Shown: piece after piece, positions 21,566 to 27,689 of the stretch
Numbering within the stretch: position 1 is the stretch's first letter
How the letters are laid out: each line of letters opens with the position of its first letter
Assembly (NCBI RefSeq): GCF_007830295.1
Contig: NZ_VLKC01000002.1
Location: 902,940-966,939 of the forward strand
Direction: 5' to 3'
Length of the DNA stretch: 64,000 nt
Source: Sporomusa sp. KB1
Lineage (GTDB): Bacteria; Bacillota; Negativicutes; Sporomusales; Sporomusaceae
Notes under the pieces: model-generated
Databases searched by the model: none
Told to the model about the DNA's origin: nothing
What the model saw: only the letters and a program-made list of their open reading frames with translations
Made by a program: the position numbers and the translations under genes

Positions 21566-23095
21566 TTAGCTTATTTTAAGCGTTCCTATCGCTTCTTCTA
21601 CTTTTATTACCAGTGTTCTGTCAGCAATTAAATCATAAATACTTTTGATATCCGGGGCAGGCATTCTGTCTTCATCTAAATGAGGCACTACCTGACGAAT
21701 AGCCTTGTGAGCTGCACCGGTACCTTTGCCGGGGTTCAGCGGCGACAAGAAGTCAATACCCTGCGCAGCCGCCAAACACTCAATTGCCAATATATAACGC
21801 ACATTATCCAGGATCTCTCCAGCCTGCCGGGCGGCAATTGTCCCCATACTGACATGATCTTCCTGGTTCGCCGAGGTGGGAATCGAATCCGCACTGGCCG
21901 GATGGACAAGCACCTTGTTCTCCGATACTAAGGAAGCAGCTGTATACTGGGTAATCATCAAACCGGAGTCTTCGCCAGGATAGGCGGTCAGAAACGGCGG
22001 TAACTCGCTTAAATGGGAATCAAGCAAACGGTTGGTGCGCCGCTCGGAGATATTGCCGATCTCCGCCAGAGCCAGCTTGAGATAATCCATGACTAAGGCA
22101 ATAGGCTGCCCATGGAAGTTACCACCAGAGATGGCTTCGCCCGTATCAGGCATAATCAACGGATTATCAGTAGCGGCATTAATTTCGACTGTTAATGTTT
22201 CTTCCAGCCGCCGCAGGGCGTCTTTGGATGCGCCATGAACCTGTGGTACGCAGCGCAGGGAATAGGCATCCTGCACCTTGGAGCAATTGACATGGGATTC
22301 AATAATAGCACTGTCAGCCGTCAGTCGCAGCATGTTCTCTGTAGTAGCAAGCTGTCCAATATGCGGCCTGACCTGGCTGATACGCGGATCAAAGGCAGTA
22401 CGGGTTCCCTTAAGGGCTTCGATACAAAGCGCGGCAGCCACATCAGCTGTCTTCATAAGATCAACAGCATCCTGCCAAACCATACAACCTACAGCTGTCA
22501 TAATTTGAGTACCATTAATAAGAGCCAATCCTTCCTTGCCGCCAAGCGCCACCGGTTTGAGGCCATTTTGCGCTAACGCTTCGGCCCCGCTCACCAGCTT
22601 ACCATTGACAAAAGCCTGACCTTCCCCCAGCATGACTAACACCATATGAGAAAGAGGCGCCAAATCACCACTAGCCCCTACCGATCCTTTTGCCGGAACA
22701 GCCGGGCACACCCGCTTATTTAACATAGCAAGCAGCATTTCTACAGAAGAAAGTTTAATTCCTGAATAACCTTTGGCCAATGAATTCGCTCTAAGCACCA
22801 TGGCTGACCGCACAACATCCTCAGGTAAATATTGCCCCACGCCAGTCGCGTGGCTTAAAATTAAGTTTCTTTGCAGCTTTTCCCGTTTTTCCTTGGAAAT
22901 AAATATCTGGCTAAAATCACCAAAGCCTGTAGAAATTCCGTAGACCGGACTTTCCTCTTCCAAAATTTTGTCTACAATTTTCCGACTGTCGATAATTTGC
23001 TTACGCCCCGCTTCACTTAATCCCACTGTTTCATAGCCCCGGGCCACCTTTACCACATCTGCCAATGTCAAAGAATATCCGTCTACTATTATCAT
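21566..23095 (-). CDS. hutH: Histidine ammonia-lyase
   Basis: 509 aa, the usual length. Converts L-histidine to urocanate and ammonia, first step of histidine use. The MIO-forming Ala-Ser-Gly (residues 141-143) lies in GSVGASGDLAPLSHM, the substrate-binding VYGISTGFG is at 51-59, and the QEDHVSMG motif is near residue 415. Ribosome site AGGAGG precedes the ATG. hutP lies upstream on the same strand, with an attenuator and then a group II intron between the two. No hutU/hutI follow in this window, so the pathway is either incomplete here or continued elsewhere. Confidence 0.95.
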   Translation of the reverse strand: MIIVDGYSLTLADVVKVARGYETVGLSEAGRKQIIDSRKIVDKILEEESPVYGISTGFGDFSQIFISKEKREKLQRNLILSHATGVGQYLPEDVVRSAMVLRANSLAKGYSGIKLSSVEMLLAMLNKRVCPAVPAKGSVGASGDLAPLSHMVLVMLGEGQAFVNGKLVSGAEALAQNGLKPVALGGKEGLALINGTQIMTAVGCMVWQDAVDLMKTADVAAALCIEALKGTRTAFDPRISQVRPHIGQLATTENMLRLTADSAIIESHVNCSKVQDAYSLRCVPQVHGASKDALRRLEETLTVEINAATDNPLIMPDTGEAISGGNFHGQPIALVMDYLKLALAEIGNISERRTNRLLDSHLSELPPFLTAYPGEDSGLMITQYTAASLVSENKVLVHPASADSIPTSANQEDHVSMGTIAARQAGEILDNVRYILAIECLAAAQGIDFLSPLNPGKGTGAAHKAIRQVVPHLDEDRMPAPDIKSIYDLIADRTLVIKVEEAIGTLKIS

Positions 23096-23186
23096 TTTTT
23101 CCAGCCTCCTATTTAATTTGCGAATCAGTCTGCGAAATACCTGGCAATTTATTTATTATTCATAAGTAGTATCTCCTTTATTACTA

Positions 23187-25095
23187 ATCGGGTAGGAAGC
23201 TGACCCTTAGTGAGTCAGCCGACCTCCCACAGAACCGTACGTACCGTTCGGTATACGGCTCCTCCTATGTTTACGCACAAACAGACTCGTAGTAATCAAG
23301 AAAATTGAAATATCCTGCCTTCTTAAGTCTCTCGGCAGAGATGGCTTTGGCAACAATCGGGTTACGGGCAACATGCCAGTACCCTTTTCTTATGTTTGCA
23401 CCTTCCCATGCTACCCAGTCCACTATTCCCAGTTTCTTAAGCATAGCGTATCGCGTCCTTATCCTTTTCCACTGTTTCCAGACAACCATCCGGATACGTC
23501 TCCGTAACCACTGATCTGTTGTTTTCAGTAGATTCTTCATATCTGCAAGTTTAAAGTAGTTCACCCATCCAGTTACAAACTGTTTGAGTTTTTCCTTCCT
23601 CTGCTCATATCCCATTCCGTTGCTTCTTGATGTAATTTCGCGAATCCTCGCTTTCATCTTTATAATGCTTTTGGGGTGTACTCGCAGACCCACATTTCTG
23701 TTCTTGTTGATATAGAACGCGTAACCTAAGAATTTGACCTTGCCTACGTAGGCTACTGCTGTCTTTTCCTTGTTCACTTTGAGGAATAATTTCTTCTCTA
23801 TGAACGGGATTAGATTTTCCAGTGTCCTTTGGGCCGCTCTTTTGCTTTTGCAGAAGATGAGCATATCGTCTGCATAACGGACGAACCTGTGCCCTCTTCG
23901 TTCAAGTTCCTCATCTAGCTCATTCAGAAGGATATTTCCACAAATTGGACTTAGAGGTCCCCCTTGCGGTACTCCTAGTTCCGTTTCCTCGAATCTGCCC
24001 ACACGCGTAATAACTCCCGCTCTGAAATATTTATGAATTAGAGATATGACTCTCCCATCCTTTATACTCCGTGACAGTACCTCTATCAGCTTGCTTTGGT
24101 TCACAGTATCAAAAAATTGTTCCAAATCCATATCCACAACGTACTTATACCCGTCGCAAATATTATTCTGACATGCTTTGAGAGCATCATGGGTGCTTCT
24201 TCTTGGTCGGAATCCGTAGCTGTTGTTCGAGAACTTTGGCTCATAGATTGGCGTCAAAACCTGCGCTATTGCCTGCTGTATGACTCGGTCTACGGCTGTT
24301 GGTATTCCCAACTTTCTCATTTTCTTCCCGCCATCTTTGGGTATCTCCACCCTCAGTACAGGTTGAGGTCGGTATTTTCCGTCCTTGATGGTTTGCCGGA
24401 TTTCCTCCCCGTTGTCTTTGAGATATGATAGAAGATCTTCCACCTGCATCCCATCGACTCCGCTTGCCCCTTTGTTCTTCTTAACCCGCTTGTATGCTTG
24501 GTTAAGATTATTTGGGGCAAGGATTTCTTCCAGCAGTCCACATTCTAGTCTGTTGGCATGGGTGCTGTTATTTTCAGTTATCCCTGAACCAGTAAGCGCT
24601 CCCGCATACTCTTTGTGCTCCGCACTATCCCTTTGCGGCCAACCACCTTTGTCACAGTGTTTTCTGCTATTGTTCCGATTCCTGGTAACATTCATTTACT
24701 AACACCTCCAAGGGTTCCGCCCTTCACAGTACCGTCGACGGTACTGCTAGTATGGCTTCATCTGACTCCTCACGACAAATCTTATTTCAACCGGCTTTCG
24801 CAAATATGCTTCCACCGTCCGTGAGGCCTCCCCGGGTAAGAACGCAGTCTTTCGCTCCATCTACCTGCCGCATTTACACAGACTGATTCCGTGTAGTTAT
24901 TGGACTTCGACTTGTTTAGCAGCCTTATCCTCAATTTGTGCCTGATGCGGTTTCTGTTCGTCAGGCCAGAGATTTGCCGCCGCCTTCCTTCACACTCCAT
25001 CTCACGATGGACGCACTTGGCCTTGGCTATACACTTCCCACTACCGGGCGTGTTCGGGACTTTCACCCGTTAGACTGCGCCCATGCCGGGCGCAC
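23187..25095 (-). mobile_element. Group IIC intron, complete, about 1.9 kb
   Basis: The 5' end starts GTGCGCCCGGCATGGGCGCA, as in bacterial class C introns (the Oceanobacillus iheyensis type). Internal landmarks include GGGTGAAAGTCCCGAACACG, GAAAGACTGCGTTCTTACCC and the domain V stem GCCGTATACCGAACGGTACG; domain VI ends ...TTCCTACCCGAT at about 23187. An intact maturase gene lies in domain IV. The 5' exon is a rho-independent terminator hairpin, the known insertion site preference of class C introns. The 3' boundary is good to a few bases. A tiny frame (MNNK, 23149-23163) with AAAGGAG follows directly. Confidence 0.9.
23271..24695 (-). CDS. ltrA: Group II intron reverse transcriptase/maturase
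   Basis: 474 aa. RT domains 0-7 include YGFRPRRSTHDAL, GVPQGGPLSP at 241-250 and the catalytic YADD at residues 274-277 (RYADDMLIFC). The maturase X domain follows (KVKFLGYAFY to FVTGWVNYFKLADMK) and the C-terminus has a basic DNA-binding-like region (WLRRRIRMVVWKQWKRIRTR). No HNH endonuclease, as expected of class C introns. The gene is intact. It sits inside the intron at 23187-25095. Confidence 0.95.
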   Translation of the reverse strand: MNVTRNRNNSRKHCDKGGWPQRDSAEHKEYAGALTGSGITENNSTHANRLECGLLEEILAPNNLNQAYKRVKKNKGASGVDGMQVEDLLSYLKDNGEEIRQTIKDGKYRPQPVLRVEIPKDGGKKMRKLGIPTAVDRVIQQAIAQVLTPIYEPKFSNNSYGFRPRRSTHDALKACQNNICDGYKYVVDMDLEQFFDTVNQSKLIEVLSRSIKDGRVISLIHKYFRAGVITRVGRFEETELGVPQGGPLSPICGNILLNELDEELERRGHRFVRYADDMLIFCKSKRAAQRTLENLIPFIEKKLFLKVNKEKTAVAYVGKVKFLGYAFYINKNRNVGLRVHPKSIIKMKARIREITSRSNGMGYEQRKEKLKQFVTGWVNYFKLADMKNLLKTTDQWLRRRIRMVVWKQWKRIRTRYAMLKKLGIVDWVAWEGANIRKGYWHVARNPIVAKAISAERLKKAGYFNFLDYYESVCA

Positions 25096-25096
25096 T

Positions 25097-25154
25097 AAAA
25101 AGGGGGTAAACTCAGTACTGAGTTTACCCCCTTATGTCTCATAACTTTGGGCTA
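25097..25154 (-). promoter_or_regulatory. HutP-type attenuator between hutP and hutH
   Basis: On the minus strand four NAG triplets at exact 4-nt spacing (TAG-CCCA-AAG-TTAT-GAG-ACAT-AAG, 25154-25131) run into a perfect 30-nt palindrome (25131-25102, GGGGGTAAACTCAG and its complement) followed by TTTTT. NAG-N4-NAG is the recognition pattern of the antiterminator HutP, which binds such RNA with Mg2+ and L-histidine and prevents the terminator from forming. The group II intron begins two bases after the T-run. Confidence 0.85.
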
Positions 25155-25191
25155 GCTTTATTATTACTGCTTTATTTTTTTATTAAGCTGA

Positions 25192-25689
25192 TCAAATTGG
25201 ATTCATCCCCAGGCCAAGCACTTCATGCTCAAAACCCTTCATGGGTGCACCCATATAACCGTACAAGGCAACCGCAATCCATTCCCCGTCATCAGCACAA
25301 CCGACTGTCCTGGGTCCGCGGACTATGCTATATAACAAACCCGCGCTGCGCAACACATTACCTAAGCCTGCATTGCCCCGGCAGATACCCTGATAGGCTT
25401 CCAGAATACTGTGGTATAAAGCGTGTTCTTCCCGATAATTGCTGCTAATAAAGCCTTCGCGCTTTGCTGCTGTTTCGACAGCTGCAAAAATCTTAGCTGA
25501 ATCCATCGATCCCACTTTGCTTTTATACACCTTGTAGCCTACTGGCAAACTCTGATCAAGCAACCTGACCTCTTCAGGTTCTGTTTGCAAGACTGATAAC
25601 ACTGCTATTTTTCCCAAACTCATCATTGAACGATATCCATACTTTCTCCCTATTTCTGCGGGCAAATTAGCACCTGCCGCTACACTCAT
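25192..25689 (-). CDS. hutP: HutP, histidine-dependent RNA antiterminator
   Basis: 165 aa (Bacillus HutP is about 151). Highly conserved regions are KVGSMDSAKIFAAVETAAK, YREEHALYHSILEAYQGICR, WIAVALYGYMGAPMKGFEHE and the end GLGMNPI. The two conserved His in the HALYH motif belong to the metal/histidine site. It binds NAG-repeat RNA when histidine is present and allows read-through into hut genes. Here both the region before hutP and that before hutH carry NAG-repeat attenuators, so it should control itself and hutH. The start codon is slightly uncertain because the ribosome site is weak. Confidence 0.92.
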   Translation of the reverse strand: MSVAAGANLPAEIGRKYGYRSMMSLGKIAVLSVLQTEPEEVRLLDQSLPVGYKVYKSKVGSMDSAKIFAAVETAAKREGFISSNYREEHALYHSILEAYQGICRGNAGLGNVLRSAGLLYSIVRGPRTVGCADDGEWIAVALYGYMGAPMKGFEHEVLGLGMNPI

Positions 25690-25861
25690 ATCTCTTATCT
25701 ACGGAAGATATCTTAGTTGCATCATAAGTCAGCTCTTGGAAAAAGTCAAGGCTAACGTGAACCTATGCTTTCAAACTACTAGCCACCGCTTTTACATTTT
25801 CGCCTTTTTTATTGTGTACCAACATGTAATACAAAATAGGATGAACAGCAGCAATGGGCCA

Positions 25862-25916
25862 AATAAAAAAGAGCAAAACTCAAAATAGAGTTTTGCCCCC
25901 TACTATCTAATAGCTA
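25862..25916 (-). promoter_or_regulatory. Second HutP-type attenuator, in the hutP leader
   Basis: On the minus strand TAG-CTAT-TAG-ATAG-TAG (25916-25900), three NAG triplets at exact 4-nt spacing, is followed directly by GGGG and a hairpin GCAAAACTC/GAGTTTTGC (25896-25873), then TCTTTTTTATTT. The layout mirrors the element before hutH. It lies about 170 bp upstream of hutP, so hutP would be autogenously antiterminated. Promoter not located with confidence; it should lie in 25930-26040. Confidence 0.8.
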
Positions 25917-26054
25917 TAGGCATAGCAAATAGGAATATGATACAAATTTCGAACTTGTTATACCCAAGCAAGTGAAAATATGTAGAGGAATTCCGGGAAG
26001 TTTTCTAGAAGTTGTCGAAAGTGCTGAAAGTGAACGCACCTAGGAGGAATCTGC

Positions 26055-27689
26055 ATGTCGCTTGATACGGCTATCACAACAAACATTATTGCTACTACCT
26101 TAATGGTATTAACCTATACCTACCTATTTATTCAATATAAGCAAAGTTATCTGGCAAAATGGGTGTTGGTATGGATCTTACAGGAGATCAGGCTGGTCTT
26201 TTTGGACAAACCTTTTGGCGAACAATTAATTGTACCATCCTTTCTCTATATTGGACTGTCTTTTGCCAACAGTCTGCTTATGATTGCAGGGACAGTAGGT
26301 TTTGCGGGCAGACGCTTATCAGCGAAGTGGCTGGTAACTGCCTTAGTATTTTCCACGCTTTCCTTTCTTGGTATTTTTCGGGGACTGACACCCAGTCTAT
26401 ACATGCTGCCTGGCGTAGCGTTTGTTGGCTCCGCCTACATCTATACCGGTTTTGTTATTTGGAATAGTTGTGCCCCTGGTATGGGAAAATGGCTAACCGC
26501 TTCGGCATTTATTCTTTTAGGAGTGCATGCTTTCGATATGCCATTCTTGTATAGCCTAGGTTGGTTTGCACCATGGGGCTATTTAATTGATGGTCTACTC
26601 AGATACGCTATCGCTATAGGAATTATCCTCGTCTATTTTGAAAAAACCAGGAATGAACTAGAACAATACTATCAGTTGCTTGCTAGAAATACCACAGATG
26701 TTATCTACCGATACAACTTCAATTCACCTGCAGGATTTGATTATATTAGTCCGGCCGTGACTCACCTGACAGGCTATCCTCCAGACTACTTCCGGACACT
26801 CCGGCAGGTTATGCGTATCATTCACCCCGATGACCGCGCTAAATTGAAGAAAATAGCAACTGTCCGCAGTCTCCCTGACGGCTTCGTGACTCTACGGGTA
26901 AGAGCAAGAAATGGGGATATCGTCTGGGCAGAACAAAAAAATTCATTAGTTGTTGATTCCACTGGCCGTCCCATAGCTGCGGAGGGCATTGTACGGGATA
27001 TTACCAAGCGAATACTATTAGAAGAAGACGTATCGCGGCTTGACCGGCTAAATATTGTTGGCGAAATGGCTGCTAATTTTGCCCACGAAGTCCGCAATCC
27101 TCTGACTACCGTACGGGGTTATCTGCAGCTTCTGGGGAAGAAAAGTGAATTCAGCAATTATAAGGAGCAATTTACTCTTTTATTGGAAGAACTTGACCGC
27201 ACCAATCAAATCATTACTGAATATCTATCTCTTAGCAAAAATAAAATCGTTGAAATGAAAAAAGGCGATTTGAACCATATTTTATTGGCACTCCATCCTT
27301 TAGTGCAGGCAACTGCAGTACCGTCGCAAGTCACCGTAAATTTAAACTTGGGAGATATTCCATTACTGTATATTGACGATAAAGAAATTAAGCAACTTAT
27401 ACTTAACCTCACCCGTAACGCTATTGAGGCAATGACATCAGGTGGAAAGCTGGAAATTAAGACATTGGCTAGCGAAGATAATACCATTCTTACTGTCACT
27501 GATCAGGGCAAGGGAATTCCCGGCCATGTCATGAACAACCTGGGTAAGCCCTTTCTTACGACTAAGGAAAATGGCACAGGCTTGGGAATGGCTATCTGCT
27601 ATCGTATTTGTCTTAGACATAATGCTAAACTGGATATTAACACTGGGCCAGCTGGAACAACGATAAATGTAATATTCCCTAACAGCTAG
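26055..27689 (+). CDS. Membrane-bound PAS sensor histidine kinase
   Basis: 544 aa. Residues 1-195 hold about seven hydrophobic segments, a membrane sensor region of MASE/7TM character. A PAS domain follows (205-320, with a PAC-like GIVRDITKR end), then HisKA with AHEVRNP (His344) and a HATPase domain (N-box NLTRNAIEAM, G1 DQGKGIPG, G2 GTGLGMAI). The transmitter resembles that of 1300-2694. A TAGGAGGAAT site precedes the ATG. No response regulator is adjacent; the GNAT-cNMP/radical SAM pair starts 170 bp downstream after a terminator, so it may be the input for that unit (inference). Confidence 0.88.
   Translation: MSLDTAITTNIIATTLMVLTYTYLFIQYKQSYLAKWVLVWILQEIRLVFLDKPFGEQLIVPSFLYIGLSFANSLLMIAGTVGFAGRRLSAKWLVTALVFSTLSFLGIFRGLTPSLYMLPGVAFVGSAYIYTGFVIWNSCAPGMGKWLTASAFILLGVHAFDMPFLYSLGWFAPWGYLIDGLLRYAIAIGIILVYFEKTRNELEQYYQLLARNTTDVIYRYNFNSPAGFDYISPAVTHLTGYPPDYFRTLRQVMRIIHPDDRAKLKKIATVRSLPDGFVTLRVRARNGDIVWAEQKNSLVVDSTGRPIAAEGIVRDITKRILLEEDVSRLDRLNIVGEMAANFAHEVRNPLTTVRGYLQLLGKKSEFSNYKEQFTLLLEELDRTNQIITEYLSLSKNKIVEMKKGDLNHILLALHPLVQATAVPSQVTVNLNLGDIPLLYIDDKEIKQLILNLTRNAIEAMTSGGKLEIKTLASEDNTILTVTDQGKGIPGHVMNNLGKPFLTTKENGTGLGMAICYRICLRHNAKLDINTGPAGTTINVIFPNS

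Follow-up and report, generated by a model that had tools for sequence, protein, structure and literature searches.

A group IIC intron at the HutP-type attenuator between hutP and hutH in Sporomusa sp. KB1

Introduction

Group IIC introns choose their insertion sites by a hairpin together with an IBS1 motif (PMC10190682, PMC3898094, PMC4424553) and are found after intrinsic transcription terminators (PMC8919778 and PMC4424553, citing Robart et al., 2007). Hidden behind these terminators and rarely transcribed, they are thought to be harmless (PMC8919778). A SAM-I aptamer followed by a terminator and a IIC ribozyme has been noted, but was discounted as a false-positive allosteric ribozyme (PMC9481103). 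In Clostridioides difficile, a c-di-GMP-II riboswitch stands beside a group I intron and the ligand controls splice-site choice (PMC9481103). The hut attenuator of Bacillus subtilis carries NAG triplets in clusters of three, with the second cluster located some 20 nt off (PMC7430163). Among the open-access papers searched, none was found to describe such an intron at an attenuator of the HutP or T-box type; Robart 2007 and Toor 2006 could include examples.

The window analysed here is a stretch of 64,000 nucleotides from the 6.06 Mb genome of Sporomusa sp. KB1, in which a IIC intron separates the hut attenuator from hutH. The locus shares with that of B. subtilis the order hutP, NAG cluster, terminator and hutH, but differs in its 1.9-kb intron, a first cluster of four triplets, an incomplete second cluster and an additional HutP-type attenuator upstream (compare PMC7430163). 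As in the SAM-I case, the intron lies directly behind an intact ligand-controlled terminator; there, however, the sensor is an RNA aptamer, whereas here it is the protein HutP, and the arrangement is found repeatedly, at attenuators of the HutP, T-box, SAM-I and cobalamin types. The C. difficile system is similar in having a self-splicing intron in an mRNA leader beside a ligand sensor, whereas the hut ligand most likely controls only transcription into the intron. In relation to other terminator-inserted IIC introns, the element is typical in its reverse transcriptase (RT)/maturase without an endonuclease domain, its 5′ exon of hairpin and T-run, its short putative IBS1 and IBS3 and its several copies behind unrelated terminators. 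It differs in that the hut terminator is a regulated attenuator followed by its own co-directional gene, for which no promoter is visible. We regard it as probable that a mobile IIC intron retrotransposed into the DNA of the HutP attenuator hairpin between hutP and hutH, and that expression of this copy is thereby placed under the inducible control of the attenuator.

The hut Locus and Its Attenuators

All features described for the window lie on the minus strand, in the order hutP (25689-25192), terminator, group IIC intron (25095-23187) and hutH (23095-21566). The hutP gene (25192-25689) encodes the histidine-dependent antiterminator (PF09021, E 1.2e-26; NF002838 equivalog) and is preceded by a promoter-like site, TTGACT-17-TATGAT, at 25721-25749 (10/12 match in the pattern scan). 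Judged by HutP, which is 96% identical, the nearest named relative is Sporomusa silvacetica, where a near-identical counterpart of the promoter-like site lies between a permease gene and hutP. The hutH gene (21566-23095) encodes histidine ammonia-lyase (TIGR01225 equivalog, E 2.5e-213) and its product is 98% identical to that of S. silvacetica.

Between the two genes, four NAG triplets (TAG, AAG, GAG, AAG) lie N4 apart at 25131-25154. They start at 25154, 25147, 25140 and 25133, with the final triplet overlapping the base of the terminator stem, and the last three are conserved at sister sites. A spacing of 4 nt between NAG triplets is that of a HutP site. The terminator itself (25096-25133) consists of a 15-bp stem, a T-run and a single A, and forms the 5′ exon of the intron with an IBS1-like end, ...TTTA. 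The hairpin at 25100-25133 is perfect over its 15 bp, with a centroid energy of -25.2 kcal/mol and a z-score of -4.1 on folding of a 71-nt stretch. The site is assigned to the HutP-controlled attenuators on the grounds that hutP lies immediately upstream and at least three NAG triplets with 4-nt spacing stand beside a terminator. A complete second cluster of three triplets was not found at the hutH attenuator, where the loop region has CAG-N4-GAG only; the label "HutP-type" therefore rests on the first cluster, the gene context and conservation, and not on the full B. subtilis layout. Across the family, the NAG-N4 pattern (first cluster plus stem start, one mismatch allowed) was matched at 17 sites, spread over 8 of the 12 genomes, compared with a single match for the reversed control pattern. 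The genes seen to follow such sites were hutH, hutU and amino-acid permease genes.

The window holds two such attenuators. The other, at 25868-25916 upstream of hutP, comprises a first NAG cluster, TAG-N4-TAG-N4-TAG, at 25899-25916 (exact pattern match G000:C1:928831-928854, window 25892-25915) and a terminator at 25868-25901, recognised by the terminator scan and by comparison with the S. silvacetica locus (L255). In S. silvacetica an amino-acid permease gene follows the counterpart of this attenuator, and the lineage of the window has lost that gene. A second HutP-family protein is encoded elsewhere (L042, 7949-8374, minus strand) next to a transporter-like open reading frame, and most genomes of the family encode a close counterpart of it.

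A further loss concerns hutU. In three relatives (L009, L011 and L012) a hutU-like frame, labelled by its likeness to the urocanase of locus L222, lies between attenuator and hutH. In the window, a relic of the hutU start (ATGAATAATAAATAAATTGCCAG, 23141-23163) marks the loss of the gene, by comparison with the start ATGAACAATAAACAAATTGCCAGC in L009/L235. The genome retains another cluster at 2.21 Mb (L222, G000:C1) with a second histidine-ammonia-lyase-like gene, a large regulator-like open reading frame, hutU and a neighbour which, from sequence likeness, we take to be hutI. The triplet pattern found no HutP-type site at this cluster.

With hutU and the permease lost here and a second hutH-like, hutU and hutI-like set elsewhere, the hutH of the window may be dispensable and the intron simply tolerated. 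On this account the hut locus is decaying, and the insertion persists since hutH is either unneeded or down-regulated by the intron; inhibition of host gene expression by a group II intron has been reported (PMC6003770). The high identity of HutH and HutP to those of S. silvacetica argues against decay, as does the integrity of the reading frames, the HutP box, the terminator and the ribosome site of hutH, and the S. silvacetica locus, also without hutU, is nevertheless free of the intron. Tolerated damage is a less likely account.

Structure and Insertion Site of the Intron

The intron spans 1909 nt (23187-25095), from GTGCGCCC to CCTACCCGAT. Identical copies define both ends, as does the empty site of S. 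silvacetica when the joined exons are aligned to it. Matches at Rfam gathering level cover part of domain I (RF02001, 24841-25011, E 3.9e-30), the segment that separates domain I from the maturase gene (RF01998, 24719-24811) and domains V-VI (RF00029, 23187-23263, E 1.9e-7). The intron-encoded protein (IEP) is an RT/maturase of 474 amino acids (23271-24695) in an intact frame, with a YADD motif and a match to the group_II_RT_mat equivalog; Pfam reports RVT_1 and GIIM only, and no endonuclease domain. Domains V/VI, a maturase of this kind and a 5′ exon of hairpin plus T-rich IBS1 together place the element in group IIC. The sequence-only reading, which had proposed a class C intron at a hut attenuator, is borne out by these matches together with the NAG triplets and the HutP and HutH equivalogs.

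At the junction, a single A separates the T-run from the first G of the intron at 25095, an interval of one base and not of two as had been read from the letters. A putative EBS1, UAAA, lies at approximately intron position 178, within the RF02001 part, and fits an IBS1 of UUUA, its loop being assigned by analogy to PMC10190682. The 3′ exon (23096-23186) is the hutH leader, with an AGGAGG ribosome site and a T as its first, IBS3-like base. On joining the exons and aligning them to the intron-free leader of S. silvacetica, no gap appears at the junction and a single T-to-G difference lies nearby in the 3′ exon. This shows an exact insertion, the splicing of which would regenerate the original leader. 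This comparison with an intron-free relative, which had been suggested as a check, agrees with the earlier idea that splicing could rejoin the T-run with the hutH leader. Neither exon differs from the empty site beyond ordinary divergence. Anatomy, copies and empty site place the insertion exactly after the T-run region of the HutP attenuator.

Intron Copies and Mobility

The same genome holds two further full-length copies, one identical (L001) and one with 3 differences (L003), neither of which has a co-directional gene closely downstream. A fourth copy (L004/L005, G000:C1:3567981-3568634), of approximately 90% identity, has lost the whole maturase gene while keeping the ribozyme ends, and was possibly mobilised in trans. 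All four lie directly behind intrinsic terminators ending in TTA. IBS1 reads CUUA at one of them, and the first base of the 3′ exon is T in all four. As the same relation of intron to terminator holds at 4/4 copies, the placement behind the terminator is not due to chance. The presence of two identical full-length copies at different sites suggests recent mobility, and it is on account of this identity that the retrotransposition is called recent. A dedicated hut function of the intron is rejected, since unrelated terminators precede the two other full-length copies and the one with the deletion.

Outside the genome, an IEP 88% identical to that of the window occurs in a genome from a different class of the phylum (L138, G657:C4:91989-93404); it is far closer than the IEPs of other relatives, which looks like recent horizontal transfer.

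Attenuators Among Group IIC Insertion Sites

Insertion sites were collected by IEP and DNA searches across the order, class and phylum. A total of 177 loci entered start finding, of which 86 obtained a 5′ end by pattern; a profile search added starts for most of the others and 18 remained startless. This gave 157 loci with start and flank, 148 of them distinct, among which a few starts may be off, as two close pattern matches were present. Under a strict rule a hairpin is flush with the insertion at 100/147 sites compared with 18/147 control positions, and under a looser rule a hairpin is found at 143/148 sites compared with 63/148 controls.

The attenuator search covered 141/148 sites, with Rfam on 140 plus the window site, leaving out L208, L211, L213, L214, L216, L218 and L219. 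HutP sites are absent from the Rfam matches and were sought by triplet pattern, of whose 4 matches 2 were kept. The NAG triplets in L131 and L195 were not counted, being single matches without hut context, the former by tRNA genes. Also not counted were a TPP riboswitch at L175, which lies 737 nt from the intron and is not adjacent, and a 'pan' motif at L078, which is downstream of the intron.

An attenuator directly 5′ of the intron, with a co-directional operon after it, is present at 5/141 sites, and all five introns run in the direction of the operon. The pairs are HutP with hutH in the window, HutP with a permease, a T-box with valS, SAM-I with a cystathionine-type enzyme and cobalamin with cobT. 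Promoter-like sites lie ahead of the leader in 5/5 cases, and none was found after the intron in any of them. In the second HutP case, in the same genus (L123/L220, G009), a 12/12 promoter match precedes the HutP attenuator and intron, and the permease gene starts with GTG 30 nt after the intron; this intron differs from that of the window, with an IEP only 46% identical. In the T-box case (L215/L242, G317:C47), a promoter-like site lies just 5′ of the T-box and valS begins 24 nt after the intron. The SAM-I case (L185/L241, G676) has a 12/12 promoter match and a cystathionine-gamma-synthase/lyase-type enzyme encoded 29 nt after the intron, while in the cobalamin case (L109/L240, G077) a promoter-like site lies upstream of the riboswitch and cobT follows approximately 190 nt after the intron, with a bit score just under the curated cut-off. 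The G009 permease and G676 enzyme fall below the curated cut-offs for exact substrate and are given as types only.

Further T-box and intron junctions were sought by a combined pattern. Among 15 genomes of the class of G317 it matched G317 itself alone (1 match), among 398 genomes of the phylum it gave 2 matches, G317 and G450 (G450:C85:9795-9863, where the contig ends before the downstream gene), and among 380 genomes of the window's class it gave 0 matches. Viral contigs gave 1 match (L253, a partial reading). The G450 and viral junctions are excluded from the 5/141.

The same architecture at other attenuators arose independently. It exists because the introns target terminators and not because of a dedicated hut function; an attenuator being a terminator, some IIC insertions must fall at attenuators. 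Placement at a ligand-controlled attenuator, which had been singled out as notable, is indeed uncommon at 5/141 sites, but it is recurrent and not unique, as the SAM-I case also illustrates (PMC9481103). That case is not evidence for ligand-gated splicing but for ligand-gated transcription of the element, a point absent from the passage of that work that describes it. A selective preference for HutP attenuators is not supported. They are hit by 2/22 listed insertion sites of the genus, and most listed HutP terminators run into TTTA|T, the sequence used by these introns. If a genome has approximately 1,300 strict terminators (scaled up from 27 in 124 kb, of which 12/27 carry TTA in their tails) and, in most cases where HutP sites are present, 2-4 of them, a second insertion at such a site is by rough arithmetic a 5-10% event, and it was noticed post hoc.

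Probable Transcription Through the Intron

The pattern scan for promoters and terminators covered 22300-27200 and gave 11 promoter-like matches compared with 8.9 +/- 3.1 expected by shuffling; these calls are consensus matches and not proof. Within the intron it found no sense terminator and one weak sense promoter-like match (24571-24542, 9/12). The earlier reading had made hutH dependent on antitermination and then on reading through, or splicing out, the intron, and had named a promoter in the 3′ exon as the counter-case. No sense promoter-like site was found there by the scan, and expression of hutH from such a promoter is rejected. The dependence on reading through is in keeping with these scans, but that on splicing was overstated, as hutH retains its own AGGAGG downstream of the intron, which should permit translation even from unspliced RNA.

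The intron could instead be a passenger only, hardly transcribed behind its terminator, with hutH either silent or driven by a promoter located within the intron or beyond it. The weak match within the intron and the two full-length copies without a close downstream gene are consistent with this, as is the described rarity of transcription of IIC introns after terminators (PMC8919778). The job of a HutP attenuator, however, is conditional read-through into hutH, and the 3′ exon offers no promoter-like site for the alternative route. The valS locus is a telling parallel: the gene lying 24 nt behind that intron is the only valS above cut-off in a genome rated 97% complete, and the pattern scan found no sense promoter-like match inside that intron. 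With an essential single-copy gene directly behind it, that intron should be transcribed. A mere passenger is, on balance, quite improbable in the hut locus.

For the preferred reading, of an insertion into a working attenuator, the following course may be proposed. Without histidine, the terminator would halt transcription from the hutP promoter, leaving both the intron and hutH silent. With histidine and Mg2+, HutP would bind the NAG cluster and the hairpin would not form in time, whereupon RNA polymerase would pass through the 1.9-kb intron into hutH. Intron RNA and maturase, both from the same transcript, would then bring about excision and rebuild the ancestral hutH leader (TTTTTA followed by TAGTAATAAAGGAG). 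Splicing would relieve the cost of the insertion but would not be strictly needed; unspliced RNA would keep a usable hutH ribosome site. The attenuator would in this way act as an inducible gate on the hut copy of the retroelement.

A stronger version would make the locus a ligand-responsive splicing switch, in which HutP with histidine holds the 5′-exon hairpin open and also sets whether or where the intron splices, giving a two-step gate. IIC introns recognise a stem-loop beside IBS1 (PMC10190682, PMC3898094), and HutP would disrupt exactly that hairpin, its final NAG triplet overlapping the stem base. Such a switch is nonetheless very improbable: an intact upstream attenuator is the usual product of ordinary terminator targeting, the ground on which the analogous SAM-I case was rejected (PMC9481103), and the exons are unchanged from the empty site beyond ordinary divergence. 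The best reading of the sequence comparisons is that of an opportunistic, terminator-seeking retroelement that would be transcribed under the control of a host sensor and would, on splicing, leave the leader as it was before insertion.

Significance

Attenuators are terminators that open on cue, and the targeting rule of IIC introns therefore puts some of them in the leaders of metabolic, even essential, genes. The view that these introns are rarely transcribed (PMC8919778) cannot hold for those sited at attenuators during induction of the operon, and host nutrient sensors probably switch these mobile elements on, as judged from the arrangement of the five loci. More tentatively, and with doubt prevailing, IIC elements in leader attenuators may be sensor-gated throughout, with RNA, maturase, splicing and mobility arising only in response to a host signal, be it an excess of histidine, uncharged tRNA-Val or a shortage of SAM or of cobalamin, and with transcription through the intron as the sole route to the host operon, even for valS. 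At the HutP sites, where the antiterminator that lets polymerase through would also open the hairpin used by the ribozyme, splicing may, as a conjecture, lag until HutP leaves. Attenuator-sited introns thus constitute natural test cases for the timing of retroelement expression, for the speed of maturase splicing in vivo and for the effect on splicing of a regulator that disrupts the hairpin. The T-box, intron and valS locus is the sharpest of these, for there, barring a promoter that escaped detection, survival of the host depends on transcription across the intron.
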